DNA from: a virus
DNA: 64,000 nucleotides
Strand: one strand, 5' to 3'
Virus record (IMG/VR): IMGVR_UViG_3300007735_001031
Location: 1-64,000 of that record
The notes under the pieces are model-generated. The model saw nothing but the letters and a program-made list of their open reading frames with translations, did no database searches and was not told the origin of the DNA. Shown piece by piece: positions 12,232-44,642 of the stretch. The first letter of the stretch is position 1. Every line of letters starts with the position of its first letter. A program made the translations under genes and the position numbers.

Positions 12232-12331
12232 GATAAACAAACCATTGTTTAATACAACGATGATCAACAAACTTACGATACATCAAGGCATTACTTCTAC
12301 ATACATTAACATCTAATTCAATCGTTCTCAT
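12218..12331 (-). CDS. 37-aa mini-repeat protein 7 of run
   Basis: M-R-T-I-E-L-D-V, then I-K-Q-W-F-V-Y-H. First of the run, overlapping the stop of the deaminase gene (ATGA). Confidence 0.55.
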   Translation of the reverse strand: MRTIELDVNVCRSNALMYRKFVDHRCIKQWFVYHEND

Positions 12332-12738
12332 AGCTTCATCATCTCAAAGTATCCATCCTCAGTAGAGTAGAATACACGCTTGCTTCCACAGAATCGCATA
12401 GCTTCCTGACACATAGAACAAGGCTTGGAGTTGCGATACTCATTCTCATAATTCACACGAACAACATAAACATCGGCTCCCTCGGTGGAGTCCTTCGCCA
12501 TATTAAGAATGGCTCCGAGTTCAGCGTGAAGCGTTGCCTGTCCCTTAGTTCTGCAACGAAAGCGACCACCAAAAGAACAAGGCTTATCCTTGTTGTGGGA
12601 AGCATTTAGGACAACCCCGTGCTTCACCAAAACGGCACCATGACGAAACTTTCCGTAGCTGGAAAGCTCCGCCATTCTCTTTGCGAACTCAAACATTCGC
12701 TCGTTTCGTCTGGTAAGATCAATAGTTCTGATATACAC
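12328..12738 (-). CDS. dCMP/cytidine-type deaminase
   Basis: Zinc-dependent deaminase fold: the H-A-E-L motif (TLHAELGAIL) supplies the Zn His and catalytic Glu, and P-C-S-M-C supplies the two Zn Cys. Likely converts dCMP to dUMP for ThyX, also in this window, though other cytidine-deaminase-type substrates are possible. Start uncertain: GTG 12736-12738 has GGAG seven bases upstream and lies downstream of the promoter; an internal ATG at 12696 is the alternative. Confidence 0.82.
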   Translation of the reverse strand: MYIRTIDLTRRNERMFEFAKRMAELSSYGKFRHGAVLVKHGVVLNASHNKDKPCSFGGRFRCRTKGQATLHAELGAILNMAKDSTEGADVYVVRVNYENEYRNSKPCSMCQEAMRFCGSKRVFYSTEDGYFEMMKL

Positions 12739-13741: not shown

Positions 13742-13837
13742 TTACCACGATCTCCAAAAGATATATAGGACAAGGAATCCCATAACAAAGTAAAGTCCTT
13801 CCGGATTTTCTTTTACAACATTAAACGCTTCAATCAT
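13742..13837 (-). CDS. 31-aa single-helix membrane peptide
   Basis: ATG 13835-13837 behind GGAAAAA. Residues 13-29 are a hydrophobic helix ending in R-S-W. Lies directly downstream of the tmRNA. Confidence 0.5.
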   Translation of the reverse strand: MIEAFNVVKENPEGLYFVMGFLVLYIFWRSW

Positions 13838-13856
13838 TTTTTCCTTTGGTGGAGAC

Positions 13857-14209
13857 GCCGCGAGTCGAACGCGGGTCTTGAATAATAATTGTAATCACTC
13901 ATTCACAGGAATAGCCAAACACCCAGCAGTTCAGCAGACCACCCAAAATATTGGGAACTTCATATGATTTTCTTTAAGGTAGAAACCATTAAAATAACCA
14001 ATTGTGGATATTCTTTTCGGCAGTATCCAAGCTTATCCAAACTTATTTTACAGAGCGTTTGGCAACTCCGTTTAACTAAGCTGCTAGAGCGTAATTAAAA
14101 GTTTCAACATTATCGTTGGCACTTAAACATTTCAGCGTTTTTACGATGCCACGCTGCCCATCGTCCTGCATAATTACAAATCTTACCCAATCGAAACCAG
14201 TTCGTCCCC
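13857..14209 (-). ncRNA. ssrA: transfer-messenger RNA (tmRNA)
   Basis: 353 nt. The 5' end GGGGACG pairs with CGTCTCC at the 3' end, followed by discriminator A and encoded CCA (13857-13859). A tRNA-type T-arm (GCGTTCGACTCGC) is present at the 3' end. An internal reading frame (14076-14120) encodes the tag ANDNVETFNYALAA and then TAG, matching the AND...YALAA pattern of bacterial ssrA tags. tmRNA rescues stalled ribosomes and marks the product for proteolysis with SmpB; no SmpB is seen here, so host SmpB would be needed. Confidence 0.93.
14076..14120 (-). other. tmRNA tag reading frame
   Basis: GCC resume codon at 14118-14120 through TAG at 14076-14078: 14 codons giving ANDNVETFNYALAA. It is longer than the 10-11-residue enterobacterial tag but keeps the YALAA degron read by ClpXP. 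Confidence 0.88.
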
Positions 14210-14214
14210 TTATG

Positions 14215-14469
14215 TTATTCCTTCTTTTCTAGCGAGGTGAAGGCACCTTCCTCAATTAGTTTATACACTTGTCGAACATTTTTAAGTGTCTGAAACAGAA
14301 CAGCATGGGAGGGAGGAATAGAAATAATATTCTGTCCTTCGAACTCCATTAAGTCCTGCTCCACAACAACATCTAATTCTTGCGCGACAATATTCTCGAG
14401 ATTGTCGATAAGGCCTTCCATAGTTCGCTTGGTATAATCCTTATCATAAGACCAATAACGATTACGCAT
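14215..14469 (-). CDS. 84-aa hypothetical protein
   Basis: Acidic helical protein, unrecognised. Its start overlaps the stop of the upstream zinc-ribbon gene, and it ends five bases before the tmRNA 5' end, so it is probably cotranscribed with the tmRNA. Confidence 0.65.
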   Translation of the reverse strand: MRNRYWSYDKDYTKRTMEGLIDNLENIVAQELDVVVEQDLMEFEGQNIISIPPSHAVLFQTLKNVRQVYKLIEEGAFTSLEKKE

Positions 14470-14632
14470 TTCGTCCTCTAAACTTGTAGTTTTGGATGTT
14501 ATAAATGTATTGAGCAGATTGGAGAACTTGATTCTCCTTCTCTTCCTTCTGTTCGCACCAGAAGCATACGCCGTTTCTCATATCTCTAATGTCGTGCTCA
14601 ACACCACACTTCTTACAGGTTGCCGTATTCAT
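14462..14632 (-). CDS. 56-aa zinc-ribbon protein
   Basis: CxxC at residues 6-9 (CKKC) and CFWC near 23-26 form a short zinc ribbon; the rest is helical. ATG 14630-14632 follows GGAGG, which lies in one arm of the large inverted repeat at 14641-14675. Confidence 0.66.
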   Translation of the reverse strand: MNTATCKKCGVEHDIRDMRNGVCFWCEQKEEKENQVLQSAQYIYNIQNYKFRGRNA

Positions 14633-14640
14633 AATGAAGT

Positions 14641-14675
14641 CCTCCTCTGCTATACACTAACTATAGCAGAGGAGG
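14641..14675. repeat. 14-bp-arm inverted repeat over promoter and ribosome site
   Basis: Perfect arms 14641-14654 and 14662-14675 separated by 7 bases. The right arm covers the promoter -10 and spacer; the left arm contains the GGAGG used by the downstream gene. It could be an operator or an mRNA hairpin hiding the ribosome site. Confidence 0.75.
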
Positions 14676-14688
14676 AAATCTGTGTCAA
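14660..14688 (-). promoter_or_regulatory. sigma-70 promoter upstream of tmRNA operon
   Basis: -35 TTGACA (14683-14688), 17-bp spacer, -10 TATAGT (14660-14665). Drives the zinc-ribbon gene, the 84-aa gene and most likely the tmRNA. Confidence 0.83.
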
Positions 14689-33997: not shown

Positions 33998-34386
33998 TTA
34001 ACTTCAATAGATTGTTGCATTTCTTTTAATGATTTAATTGCTTCCATGAGATTGGATAATTTATCTGAGGCCGATGCTGTTTCAACTTTTTTCTCGACAG
34101 GTTTTTCTTTGGGTTCTTCTTGTTGCGGGGTTAAAGCTACGACATAAGCCTGTGTATTGTTTTTGAGATTACCAAGCATAGCATTGATAACTTTGATTAA
34201 TTGTTCAGATTGCTCGATTGCGGATAGCGTTTCCTCTATATTTCTATTTTTACAAGCAACAGAGGCGGCTTTAATCTCACACACTAAATCATTTGAAATA
34301 GATGCAAGTTCTTCCGCATCAAGATGGATTCTATCCATCAAAGTCTCTTTTTTAACAAGAGTTGAATAATAAGCTAAAGTTGACAT
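33994..34386 (-). CDS. 130-aa helical hypothetical protein
   Basis: Helical with a Pro/Glu linker (P-Q-Q-E-E-P-K-E-K-P) then a short amphipathic helix. Its start overlaps the GroEL stop, so it may be coupled to chaperonin translation. Unrecognised. Confidence 0.62.
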   Translation of the reverse strand: MSTLAYYSTLVKKETLMDRIHLDAEELASISNDLVCEIKAASVACKNRNIEETLSAIEQSEQLIKVINAMLGNLKNNTQAYVVALTPQQEEPKEKPVEKKVETASASDKLSNLMEAIKSLKEMQQSIEVK

Positions 34387-35957
34387 TATACCTCCACGAT
34401 TGCGTTATTTGTTGTAATCAACGTTGATACAACTGAAATAGAATTCTTTATGGCAGAGGTTGTAACTTTCACAGGGTCAATCACGCCTGCCTTGTACAAG
34501 TCTACCACCGTGCGCGTCTTGGTGTCAAGGCCGAGTCCGTCCTTTGACTTGATAACCTTTTCAGAGAGAATTTGTGCCGGAAGGTCAAGATTCTCACAGA
34601 TCTTTTCAAACGGAGCCGATAACGACTTGATAACAACATTGTAGCCGACAGCTTGATCCTCGGTTAGATCCTTTGGGACTCTAATAGCCTTAGAAGCCTT
34701 TAGAAGAGTTGTGCCGCCACCTGGGTGGGTTCCGGCCATTTGCGCTGATTTAACAGCCTCCAAGGCGTCCTCAATACGGTGTTTCTTTTCTACGACTTCT
34801 ACCTCACTTGAACCACCAACACGAATGGTTACAACACCACTGGCAAGTCTTGTAATTCTATCTTGGATTCTCTTACATTCTTCTAAGTCAGCAGTCTCTT
34901 TGATAAGTTCTTTAAGTTCTTCAGATCTTTTATCTATCTCTTCCGCCGATCCCTTGCCTCCGATAATCGCCGTTTGAGTCTTTCCAACTTCCACCGCTTT
35001 ACAACGGCCAAAATCTGCAAGCGTAAATTGGGAAAAATCCAAACCAGAGTCTCTAGTAAAAAACCTACCATTAGTAGCGACAGCAAGATCAGCCAAAACA
35101 TTTCTTCTTTCTTCTCCGTAGTAAGGGGCTTTCACGGCAACAATCTTCATGGAATTACGAAGAGCATTCATAATCAAAGCAGCTAATAGTTGTCCTTCAA
35201 CATCATCAGCAACAATAATTAAAGGTTTCTTTTCTCTAGCCGCAAGTTCTAAAACAGGCATGATTGGTTCTACATGCTCTAACTTCCAGTCAGTAATAAA
35301 CAAGAGACAATCATTATGCTTGGCTACTTTTCTCATTTCGTCAGTGATAAACTGAGAAGAGAGGTAGCCAGACTCAAAGATAAAGCCTTCGGTTAAGTCC
35401 AGTTCTGTTTCGTAGGACTTGGAATCCTCAATTGTGATCGCTCCATTCTTACCCGCCAGATCAACGGCTTTGGCGATTAGCTTACCAATAACTTTATCAT
35501 TATTGGAAGATACGGTTGCGATATTCTCAATATCTTCAATTGAGTTAATTGACTTTGACTTAGAATTGATAAAGGCGATTACATCGTCCTTTGCCTTTTC
35601 CATACCCCTTCTCATTTCAGTTGGAGAAATGCCGGATGAAAGATACTTCTGTGATTCCTTTAACATACGATACGCTAGGAGGGTGCTAGTAGTGGTCCCA
35701 TCCCCTGCTTCGTGTGCTGTAAGCATGGATACTTGCTTGAGAATCTGTGCTCCAGCATTCTCAAACGGATCTTCAAAATCAACAAAGCGAGCAACAGTTA
35801 CGCCGTCCTTTGTAATGATTGGTCTTTTATCTTTTTGTTGTAAGATTACATTTCTTCCACCAGGTCCAAGTGTGGAAGAAACAAGATTAGATAGTTTTTC
35901 TACGCCTAACAGGATCTTTTCCTGTAATTGTTTGTTGCCCTCGTAAGCCTTTCCCAT
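34386..35957 (-). CDS. groL: phage GroEL-type chaperonin
   Basis: Group I chaperonin: S-S-T-L-G-P-G-G-R-N-V near the N-terminus, G-D-G-T-T-T (catalytic Asp) near 86-91, apical domain E-D-S-K-S-Y, and H-P-G-G-G-T-T with the second catalytic Asp in I-E-D-A-L. 523 aa versus ~548 in bacteria; no GGM tail. Phage chaperonins in jumbo phages fold virion proteins. ATG overlaps the DUF192 gene end, with GAGG six bases upstream. Confidence 0.93.
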   Translation of the reverse strand: MGKAYEGNKQLQEKILLGVEKLSNLVSSTLGPGGRNVILQQKDKRPIITKDGVTVARFVDFEDPFENAGAQILKQVSMLTAHEAGDGTTTSTLLAYRMLKESQKYLSSGISPTEMRRGMEKAKDDVIAFINSKSKSINSIEDIENIATVSSNNDKVIGKLIAKAVDLAGKNGAITIEDSKSYETELDLTEGFIFESGYLSSQFITDEMRKVAKHNDCLLFITDWKLEHVEPIMPVLELAAREKKPLIIVADDVEGQLLAALIMNALRNSMKIVAVKAPYYGEERRNVLADLAVATNGRFFTRDSGLDFSQFTLADFGRCKAVEVGKTQTAIIGGKGSAEEIDKRSEELKELIKETADLEECKRIQDRITRLASGVVTIRVGGSSEVEVVEKKHRIEDALEAVKSAQMAGTHPGGGTTLLKASKAIRVPKDLTEDQAVGYNVVIKSLSAPFEKICENLDLPAQILSEKVIKSKDGLGLDTKTRTVVDLYKAGVIDPVKVTTSAIKNSISVVSTLITTNNAIVEV

Positions 35958-41234: not shown

Positions 41235-44200
41235 CTAGCCAATCATCTTCCAACTCTTAGAAATTCCTATACAAGAGAATCCACCAAAGTTTTCATCATA
41301 ATTGAGTTTAGCCACATACGGTCTATTTAAATAGATTACATCTTTATCTAAATCTACCGACCAACATTTAATTTCTGTTGTTTTACCAGAATCATCTACA
41401 ACTTGAACCACATAATAATTCTTATCATTCTTGGACTTCTTAACTTCAAAAGACATAGGAACAAACCAACAGATTTTTAAGTCCTCATCATACTTGGAAA
41501 TTGAATTAATATTTGTATCACTTAGCCGCTTATATAGTTGACTGGTCATAACCATATCAACAGGGAAGAAGCCAAGAAGGGTTGTATAATTTTCCATAAC
41601 CTCTTCTTTTGTAAAGTCTCCGGCTTCTTTATACTGATTAATGTATTCATCAAACTTTTTCTTTGTCTTTGGTCTTTCACCGCAAAAGGACATCCAGAAA
41701 TGCTTGCGACCAGTAAAGCGATTATCTATCAATTCGTCAAGAGCGCCAGAACGAGCAAGAGCATCAAAGCCCTTCTTATTTAATTTAGCGTAAGCAATCT
41801 TATCATGGAATAACATTTCGTCAATTGTTTTGAACGGACGATTGTTTATGATCTGCTCGATTGCTTTTTCGCCCAAGCCCTTAATAGAACTAAGTGGCTG
41901 ATAGAAAGTCTTTCCGTCATTTGATACACCCCATTCGTCGCCGGATACATTTACATTCGGCGGATCCACTTTATACCCCAATGCTTTAACGATTGATATG
42001 GCTTTAGTTTTTCCATCATCGTCTTGGGTTTCATCGTCCAAGTATGAAGCAATCCACTCGCTTGGGTGATAAGTAAGAAGCCATGCACACTGATAAGAGA
42101 GGATACTATAACAAACTGCGTGAGATTTGTTAAAGCCATAACCTGAGAAGAACTCAAATGTTTTCCATAGATTTTCTGCTTGGTCTCTTCCAATTTGTTT
42201 TTCAGCGCATCCCTCAATAAATTTCCTGTGAATTTCATCTTTAACCTCGTGTCCTTTGCCTGTGCCTTTCTTCGTCAAAACTTTCCGCAATAGGTTGCCT
42301 TCGTCCAAAGATAGATCCTTGCCTAGCTTGTGAGCGATCAAAGCAATCTGTTCTTGGAAAATTAGGAAGCCGAAGGTTTCTTTCGTAATCTCTTCCACGA
42401 CTGGGTGAATATATTTGATAGAATCTGGATCTTCTTTTGCCTTCACATAGTTATCATCCACATGAGCCGACAAAGGACCGGGACGATAGATAGAGGTAAT
42501 AGCAGAGAGATCAATTATGCTTCTTGGCTTTGCTTTCTTACAGAATTCTTGAGCGCCTTTTTCTGCAAACTGGAATACAGCGACCCATCTTCCGTCATGG
42601 AATACATGCTCATAAACCTTCTGGTCATCAAAGTTTATTTTTGATGGGTGTAAGTTTGCATCGTAGAAGGTTTTGATATCATCGAAGGTGGGATTAACTT
42701 GTCCCTGCTTACGCAGGACACGGCTGATCGCATTCTGTATGATACGAAGAGTTGCAAGCCCAAGAATGTCAAACTTAATAAACCCAAGAGGCTCCAGGTG
42801 TCTAACATTTTGTCCCTCGCTCCAAGGTGTTTGGATTACTCCGCCACTATTAATTAGTGGCATGAACTTCGAAATGTCCTCGGACACAATAACTCCGCCA
42901 GCATGACGGCTTGCGCTTCTTACTTGGCCTTGTAGAGCCTTGATGTGCTTGCCGACCTCTGGATACTTAGCTAGAAACTTTTGTAGGGTTTCTGAGAATT
43001 CTAAGCATTCTTCGAATGTTGGAACATACATACCAGCTGTAATACCATGCTTTTCTTTTGCTGGACTTGTTGCTTCCTTAACCATAACAGAAGTGGTTTC
43101 ATTTACTTCTGTAAACGGAATACCATAAAGCTTGCCTACATCTTTGATTAGAGAGCGGAGTTGTAGAGTATTCCAGTTTGAGATTGGAACAACACAATCC
43201 TCACCCCACTGTTCGATAAGCATTTGTTTAAGGGTCATAGGATCGCTTACATCATAATCGATATCAGGATAGTCCTTTGCGTTCTTCTGCAAGAAGCGAC
43301 TGAATAGAAGACCATACTTGATTGGATCAATCTGAGTAATGTTTAATAGATATGAGATTAGAGAACCGGCCGCAGAACCACGACCAGCTCCAACAAGCTG
43401 ATTCTCAACTGCCTTGTCTGCAATCGCTTTCATGGTTAGAAAATACTTTGCGAAACCACGATTTTTAATTACCAGCAGTTCTTCTTTGAGGCGCTCAATA
43501 TACTCTTTGTTCTTATCTAGCCCATGCTTCTTCATAGAAGAAGAGCAGAGTTCGATAAGAGCTTGAATATCCGTCTTACCTTCCGGCACAACGAAATCCG
43601 GTAGTCTTACCTTTGATTCTGGTAGGAAATCCTCGATCTGTTCGTGAGCAATACGATAAGTATTTTCAAACGATTCCAATACAAGATCGTCGTCATACTC
43701 GTTAAATGTTTGAGCTGAATACTTTTTGTATGACTCCCACATTTGATCGCCGTTCTTTGGGTAAAGCTCGGAGTTTAGATCCTCTCGCTTTGATGGGAGA
43801 GAATCCAAAGACATATTCTTTGATCCAAGCCAACCAAGCATCTTATAGATTTCTCTTTCCTTCCACAACTCGGGACGAGGATAATGAGAATCACAGGTCG
43901 ATACCAGCTTGATATTATTAGCCTTGGCGACTTTGATTACAGCCTTGTTGATTTCATGCTGATCTTCATAGGCGTTCCATTGTAGTTCGCAATAGAATCT
44001 ATCTCCAAGAATGTTCTTGAAGTTTTGAACCACCTTCGTCATTTCTTCTTGGACTTTGTCTTCGCCTTGCTCTTTAAACATCCAATAGCATTTAGATAAA
44101 GGACCACCCATACAAGCAGTTAAGGCAATAACGCCTTCGCTGTGTTGTTTTAGTAGTTCGTAATCAATCCGAGGAAAACGATAAAAGTTTCCTGGTCGAT

Positions 44201-44642
44201 ATGACTTGGAAACCAATTGAAAAATGTTTGAGAGGCCTGTTTGATTCTGAGCCAGAAGAACGAGGTGAGCGCGGAAATTAAGAAAGCTCTTCTCATCTTT
44301 CTTTGATTCCTCTTCGTCTTCAACAACGACTCCTGCTTCTTCATCATCGCTCTTTTTATTCTTCTTGTCTTCTTTATGCTTCGCATAAGCTTCTGCCCAT
44401 TCCGTCAAAGACGGATTAAAATAAGCCTCAACGCCAAAGATAGGCTTGAAGTTCTTACCTTCCGCCCGCAGTTTCTTTGTGTGAAGAACTTGATAAGACA
44501 AGCCATTCATGTTGCCGTGATCGGTCAAAGCAAGAGCGTCTGCTCCGTTGCTAATAGCAAAGTCAATATGCTCGTTTGGATAGCCGAGTCCGTCAAACAC
44601 GCTGAAACAGCTATGTCCGTGTAGATTTACAAACTTAATCAT
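41235..44642 (-). CDS. dnaE: DNA polymerase III alpha subunit (DnaE)
   Basis: C-family replicase, 1135 aa. PHP domain at 1-~235 (L-H-G-H-S, D-H-G-N-M) with an acidic insertion at 90-118; polymerase palm with G-R-G-S-A-A-G-S-L at 420-427 and catalytic P-D-I-D-Y-D at 459-464; HhH-type I-K-G-L-G-E-K near 905-930; C-terminal OB-fold. Phage-encoded bacterial-type replicases are uncommon. The DEDDh exonuclease at 29736 could supply proofreading if the PHP domain does not. Confidence 0.95.
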   Translation of the reverse strand: MIKFVNLHGHSCFSVFDGLGYPNEHIDFAISNGADALALTDHGNMNGLSYQVLHTKKLRAEGKNFKPIFGVEAYFNPSLTEWAEAYAKHKEDKKNKKSDDEEAGVVVEDEEESKKDEKSFLNFRAHLVLLAQNQTGLSNIFQLVSKSYRPGNFYRFPRIDYELLKQHSEGVIALTACMGGPLSKCYWMFKEQGEDKVQEEMTKVVQNFKNILGDRFYCELQWNAYEDQHEINKAVIKVAKANNIKLVSTCDSHYPRPELWKEREIYKMLGWLGSKNMSLDSLPSKREDLNSELYPKNGDQMWESYKKYSAQTFNEYDDDLVLESFENTYRIAHEQIEDFLPESKVRLPDFVVPEGKTDIQALIELCSSSMKKHGLDKNKEYIERLKEELLVIKNRGFAKYFLTMKAIADKAVENQLVGAGRGSAAGSLISYLLNITQIDPIKYGLLFSRFLQKNAKDYPDIDYDVSDPMTLKQMLIEQWGEDCVVPISNWNTLQLRSLIKDVGKLYGIPFTEVNETTSVMVKEATSPAKEKHGITAGMYVPTFEECLEFSETLQKFLAKYPEVGKHIKALQGQVRSASRHAGGVIVSEDISKFMPLINSGGVIQTPWSEGQNVRHLEPLGFIKFDILGLATLRIIQNAISRVLRKQGQVNPTFDDIKTFYDANLHPSKINFDDQKVYEHVFHDGRWVAVFQFAEKGAQEFCKKAKPRSIIDLSAITSIYRPGPLSAHVDDNYVKAKEDPDSIKYIHPVVEEITKETFGFLIFQEQIALIAHKLGKDLSLDEGNLLRKVLTKKGTGKGHEVKDEIHRKFIEGCAEKQIGRDQAENLWKTFEFFSGYGFNKSHAVCYSILSYQCAWLLTYHPSEWIASYLDDETQDDDGKTKAISIVKALGYKVDPPNVNVSGDEWGVSNDGKTFYQPLSSIKGLGEKAIEQIINNRPFKTIDEMLFHDKIAYAKLNKKGFDALARSGALDELIDNRFTGRKHFWMSFCGERPKTKKKFDEYINQYKEAGDFTKEEVMENYTTLLGFFPVDMVMTSQLYKRLSDTNINSISKYDEDLKICWFVPMSFEVKKSKNDKNYYVVQVVDDSGKTTEIKCWSVDLDKDVIYLNRPYVAKLNYDENFGGFSCIGISKSWKMIG

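Follow-up and report, generated by a model that had tools for sequence, protein, structure and literature searches.

A one-piece tmRNA gene in an environmental virus and a viral family of tmRNA tags

Results

A complete tmRNA gene in a viral record

The window (the whole 64,000-nucleotide stretch of DNA that we analysed) comes from a linear viral record of 72,348 bases in IMG/VR. On its minus strand, ARAGORN predicts a gene for tmRNA, the RNA that releases stalled ribosomes and tags the unfinished protein for destruction. The tag is read as ANDNVETFNYALAA, followed by a stop codon (Table 1). Among all Rfam families, the window matches only the standard form of tmRNA (RF00023), which rules out a permuted two-piece tmRNA (RF04321 or RF01849). 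The match scores 119 bits (E = 6.6e-46; the gathering score is 47 bits) and covers all of the model's 374 positions (1-374); the first pseudoknot region aligns well and the later internal pseudoknot regions align poorly. The fold of the tmRNA lies 3.6 standard deviations below the shuffle mean and is more stable than all 100 shuffles. The tRNA-like end has a 7-bp acceptor stem with G3·U70, a T arm, and an encoded CCA, and the tag frame ends with a hydrophobic residue and two alanines (ALAA).

The initial annotation had described a complete ssrA gene at this locus, and the full-length RF00023 match, the ARAGORN call, and the fold beyond shuffles bear this out. Failure of the covariance model and lack of the alanine identity pair had each been set beforehand as grounds for rejecting the gene; the model matched, and the pair is present as G3·U70 in GGGGACG/CGTCTCC. 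The tag frame that had been said to end in YALAA is the one that ARAGORN reads. The gene had been placed at 13857-14209, with no strand stated. The end at 14209 stands, but the start was 10 nt too high: the true limit is 13847, so that 10 nt of the 3' end, with the encoded CCA, had been omitted.

Table 1. Features of the tmRNA locus and other genes in the window
Feature	Position	Strand	Basis or comment
tmRNA gene (ssrA), one-piece, 363 nt, CCA encoded	13847-14209	-	ARAGORN, RF00023, shuffle test
Acceptor stem, 5' half, GGGGACG, with G3 of G3·U70	14203-14209	-	Sequence reading and RF00023
Tag-encoding frame from the resume codon (GCC) to the stop codon (TAG), ANDNVETFNYALAA	14076-14120	-	ARAGORN (gene positions 90-134) and direct reading
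Acceptor stem, 3' half, CGTCTCC, with U70 opposite G3	13851-13857	-	Sequence reading and RF00023
A-CCA after the 3' half of the acceptor stem	13847-13850	-	Sequence reading
Putative 31-aa ORF, MIEAFNVVKENPEGLYFVMGFLVLYIFWRSW, directly 3' of tmRNA	13742-13837	-	Read from sequence
84-aa ORF, ends 6 nt before tmRNA	14215-14469	-	Same place in two close relatives
56-aa ORF, first of unit, two CxxC pairs (zinc-ribbon-like by eye)	14462-14632	-	Conserved in two close relatives
Sigma70-type promoter, TTGACA-N17-TATAGT, ahead of the two-ORF and tmRNA unit	14660-14688	-	11 of 12 consensus matches
Inverted repeat, perfect 15 bp, TCCTCCTCTGCTATA-N7-TATAGCAGAGGAGGA, around the -10 element and start region	14640-14676		Sequence reading
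dCMP deaminase	12328-12738
GroEL chaperonin	34386-35957		PHROG 5725, E = 1.2e-134
DnaE-type DNA polymerase	41235-44642
Virion structural protein	59933-61471
Ribonucleotide reductase	61501-63357

The window also has 14 tRNA genes on the same strand as the tmRNA (ARAGORN), and, outside the window, the same record carries gp32-like, RecA/UvsX-like, DnaB-like, and family-A polymerase genes. In a nucleotide search, the tmRNA locus and 24 kb of the window had no match in 50,697 phage records, and the DnaE-type polymerase is just 30.7% identical to that of the nearest cultured phage. No phage integrase family matched anything in the 72,348-base record, and SmpB was found neither in this record nor in 30 further records. 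With viral neighbours, no integrase match, and synteny in relatives, the tmRNA lies in a viral genome with no sign of being a prophage att-site remnant.

The replication set of this virus is an unusual mixture, in which the DnaE-type polymerase is joined by one of family A (L292:11162-12349) and by gp32-like and RecA-like genes. The closest cultured relative for GroEL is from a Flavobacterium phage (42% identity). Near the recombination genes, a 274-aa protein (L292:10341-11165, minus strand) contains a GGGNISG motif that, by eye, recalls the nucleotide-binding loop of tubulin/FtsZ-like proteins; this protein had no match in Pfam and one weak match in PHROGs (E = 0.022) with no assigned function.

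Neighbourhood and promoter of the tmRNA

The tmRNA is preceded by two small ORFs, neither of which matched Pfam or PHROG, and followed by dCMP deaminase. This arrangement is kept in the two closest records, which are independent of the window's (G002 and G003). A similar ORF start lies 3' of the tmRNA in L170, as with the 31-aa ORF of the window.

The promoter-like site ahead of the unit is kept in both close relatives (L088 and L089). These relatives also have a repeat similar to the inverted repeat, which occurs once in the window and looks like an operator. About ten other viral tmRNA genes have a promoter-like site at a distance of 42-71 nt on their 5' side. Across the window (1-64000), TTGACA-N17-TATANT occurs 17 times when one mismatch is allowed, the site ahead of the tmRNA unit included; every copy lies on the minus strand, and 2.0 would be expected. 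This suggests that the virus relies on host sigma70-type promoters throughout. It is a natural inference from these sites that the tmRNA unit would be transcribed by the host polymerase.

Elsewhere on the minus strand, four strong sigma70-type matches (5123, 5245, 5368, and 5560) are spaced about 120-190 nt apart in a G+C-rich region (5123-5588), which is perhaps the source of a series of short non-coding transcripts. In L088, downstream of position 1859, ATTTCCCCTCAGCTCCACCA directly follows the CCA of the tmRNA and resembles a second 3' end of an acceptor stem; it is possibly a trace of a tmRNA 3' part that was replaced by recombination.

The tmRNA recurs in a virus lineage

We gathered relatives of the virus through the DnaE-type polymerase alone, which gave 46 records. 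We traced the lineage by the polymerase because the major structural protein is not shared by most of the records with this family of tags. RF00023 matched above its cut-off in five of the 46, and four of these five are among the five records of at least 95 kb; the absence of a match in the others means little because most are fragments of 12-64 kb. The tags of four of the five tmRNAs belong to one family (ANDNVAFDYAVAA twice, ANDNVEFDYALAA, and ANDNVEFEYALAA) with the form ANDNV[EA]F[DE]YA[LV]AA. The fifth has the tag ANNNNHFEQRLAA. For L090/L159, we rejected the tag VAIKKVLKSAGRLNYIRTI that ARAGORN reported, as the ordinary frame, ANDNVEFDYALAA, is evident there from the alignment.

We also searched in the reverse direction, with a degenerate pattern for ANDNxxF[DENK]YAxAA over viral contigs. 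This identified 68 contigs, and 63 of them have a recognisable tmRNA (58 from ARAGORN and 5 more from Rfam). Among 25 of the tag-pattern records that were searched for the window's polymerase, nine carry it (55-86% identity), including eight of the 12 records above 100 kb. The link between this tmRNA and the virus lineage is therefore seen in both search directions. Judging from these searches, the tmRNA is a recurrent gene in a poorly known lineage of environmental viruses. Two other viral contigs (L118 and L143) have permuted alpha-type tmRNAs whose tags, ANDNVPFDYALAA and ANDNEAFDYALAA, are near this family.

Conservation of the acceptor stem and the tag

All 54 distinct one-piece viral tmRNAs keep seven of seven acceptor pairs as well as G3·U70. 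There are nine different acceptor stems among them (for example, GGGGACG/CGTCTCC, GGGTCTG/CAGATCC, and GTGCCCG/CGGGTAC), and because all pairs are kept across these nine, the changes in the stem are compensated. This conservation is support rather than proof because ARAGORN may favour good stems; also, shared ancestry inflates conservation counts among the viral tmRNAs.

We could read the tag in 53 of the 54 tmRNAs, and 52 of these tags have 13 residues. Among these 52, variation is concentrated at the third codon position (entropies of 0.20, 0.09, and 0.70 bits at positions 1, 2, and 3), and the tag always ends in [LVIM]AA. Conservation of the tag is partly built in, as the search pattern fixed several of its residues; codons 5 and 6 were left free. 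Of the 52 tags, 51 have valine at codon 5, and codon 6 varies (E, A, S, T, D, or G). The same family of tags was present in the four relatives that were found by the polymerase alone. The window's own tag, at 14 residues, is one residue longer than all of the other tags in the family.

The tag is absent from the cellular genomes scanned

It had been suggested that the tag could help identify the host lineage. We searched 84,980 bacterial and archaeal species genomes (one per species; contigs of at least 3 kb) for ANDN[VIM]xF[DENK]YAxAA followed by a stop, and the 13-residue family form was found in none of them. A scan of this kind detects only tags with the pattern's own residues and length. 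That the scan works is indicated by a looser pattern (ANDNxxxxYAxAA followed by a stop), which gave at least 118 stretches in the same genomes; among the matches listed, those that we read are alphaproteobacterial tags such as ANDNNAKEYALAA. These cellular tags resemble the viral ones in having 13 residues, an ANDN start, and a YA[LV]AA end, but they differ at residues 5-8, and in the three alphaproteobacterial genomes that we checked, the tmRNA has the permuted form.

Neither exact nor near-exact forms of the window's 14-residue tag occurred elsewhere in the viral contigs scanned. When we compared the window's tmRNA to 299 Pseudomonadota genomes with blastn, there were only matches of 22-41 bases, which we judged to be due to chance. 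Since the family's tag is absent from the scanned cellular genomes, it cannot name the host.

Comparison to known tmRNAs

In most respects, the window's gene is like any standard one-piece tmRNA (RF00023): it has the full-length match, the tRNA-like domain, G3·U70, the CCA, and a tag frame ending in ALAA. It differs in its viral tag, whose family form, ANDNVxF[DEN]YALAA, is in none of the 84,980 species genomes.

The initial annotation had stated that tmRNA is rarely carried by phages. As a proportion this is correct, as a 2022 survey reported tmRNA in 402 of 18,146 phage genomes (2.3%; PMC9004378). Even so, tmRNA in phages is a familiar phenomenon. Phage tmRNAs on record include those of Bxz1 and its relatives, Wildcat, phage G, and DS6A (PMC4131195); the tmRNA database holds 79 unique phage sequences (PMC11915505); and huge phages carry both tmRNA and SmpB (PMC7162821). 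Such RNAs have been proposed to keep the translation machinery going, to recycle host proteins, and to counteract host tagging (PMC4131195, PMC11915505, PMC9004378, PMC7162821). We did not find tags of this family in the phage tmRNA literature that we searched.

The virus resembles several cultured phages (mycobacteriophage Bxz1 and its C1 relatives, Bacillus phage G, Streptomyces BE phages, and Lacusarx) in combining a tmRNA with many tRNAs (PMC4131195, PMC11237712, PMC5648845). Those phages are large and apparently virulent, and several have DnaE-type polymerases, as here; in contrast to them, this record has no nucleotide match in the 50,697 phage records and its polymerase is about 31% identical to the nearest. 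The 2022 survey also described the marine phage Melnitz, which, like pelagimyophages, has a phage tmRNA with no need for an SmpB of its own and a proposed role in translation upkeep (PMC9004378); these marine tmRNAs are permuted two-piece forms, whereas the window's is one-piece. The RNA of DS6A is likewise viral and derived from tmRNA, but it has only the tRNA-like domain and no tag; the complete tag frame and mRNA-like region in the window rule out an RNA of that type.

Discussion

Given its features, the viral tmRNA is probably functional. This kind of gene is already known. By the pattern scan, what is added here is a viral tmRNA family with a tag that is absent from the roughly 85,000 cellular genomes scanned.

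We consider it likely that the virus carries a working one-piece tmRNA that recycles ribosomes during infection together with the host's SmpB, AlaRS, and proteases. The tmRNA would be transcribed in a short unit from the sigma70-type promoter, and the host's AlaRS would charge it with alanine via G3·U70. Host SmpB, which would be needed because there is no SmpB in the viral records, would act with EF-Tu to bring the tmRNA to ribosomes that have stalled on broken mRNAs. A-ANDNVETFNYALAA would then be added to the stalled product, host tag-directed proteases (of the ClpXP type) would clear it, and the ribosome would go back to translation for the virus, which may benefit. A rather unlikely extension is that the lineage has a tmRNA family of its own, with a tag that selection maintains and that differs from every cellular tag, and that this tag sends rescue products to another fate (in adaptor, protease, or removal rate) than host tagging does.

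A tentative proposal, and to us a somewhat doubtful one, is that the viral tmRNA substitutes for the host's tmRNA, or for an overloaded rescue system, when defences cleave RNA or when the virus degrades host RNA. The presence of 14 tRNA genes fits with this, but we know of no defence that cleaves tmRNA. Phage tRNAs, which evade tRNA-cleaving defences (PMC10264068, PMC11555353), provide an analogy that makes the proposal reasonable, and it is a special case of ribosome recycling by the viral tmRNA, not a separate mechanism. It seems improbable that the viral RNA instead competes for SmpB and so blocks host trans-translation, as was proposed for the DS6A RNA (PMC4131195, PMC11915505). Any viral tmRNA would compete for the host's SmpB, given that the viral records have none; yet inhibition would not need the full mRNA-like part or the hydrophobic-Ala-Ala tag, both of which are kept across the family, so a tag frame that is both complete and conserved speaks against this role.

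The gene might also have no function for the virus, having been gained by chance or as a copy of ssrA at an integration site. Integration at tmRNA genes is common, fragments of these genes are found in prophages (PMC9004378), and the second acceptor-like fragment 3' of the tmRNA in L088 could be read in this way. We think that such a passenger is very unlikely because the gene is complete, changes in its stem are compensated, no phage integrase family matches the record, the locus is syntenic in two relatives, and the tmRNA recurs in the polymerase lineage. As the record is a metagenome assembly, host DNA could have been misjoined to a viral contig, or the call could be false, but we give this hardly any credence: the independent records G002 and G003 have the same locus order, the neighbouring genes are viral, and the 299 Pseudomonadota genomes sampled gave no real match to the tmRNA.

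Phage tmRNAs have been catalogued for years but little studied. The tag of this family is a warning that a viral tag may be a poor guide to the host. Because the tag is absent from the cells scanned, mass spectrometry of infected communities could distinguish viral tagging from that of the host, and a lineage that carries this tmRNA offers a way to ask if viruses adjust how stalled proteins are removed.
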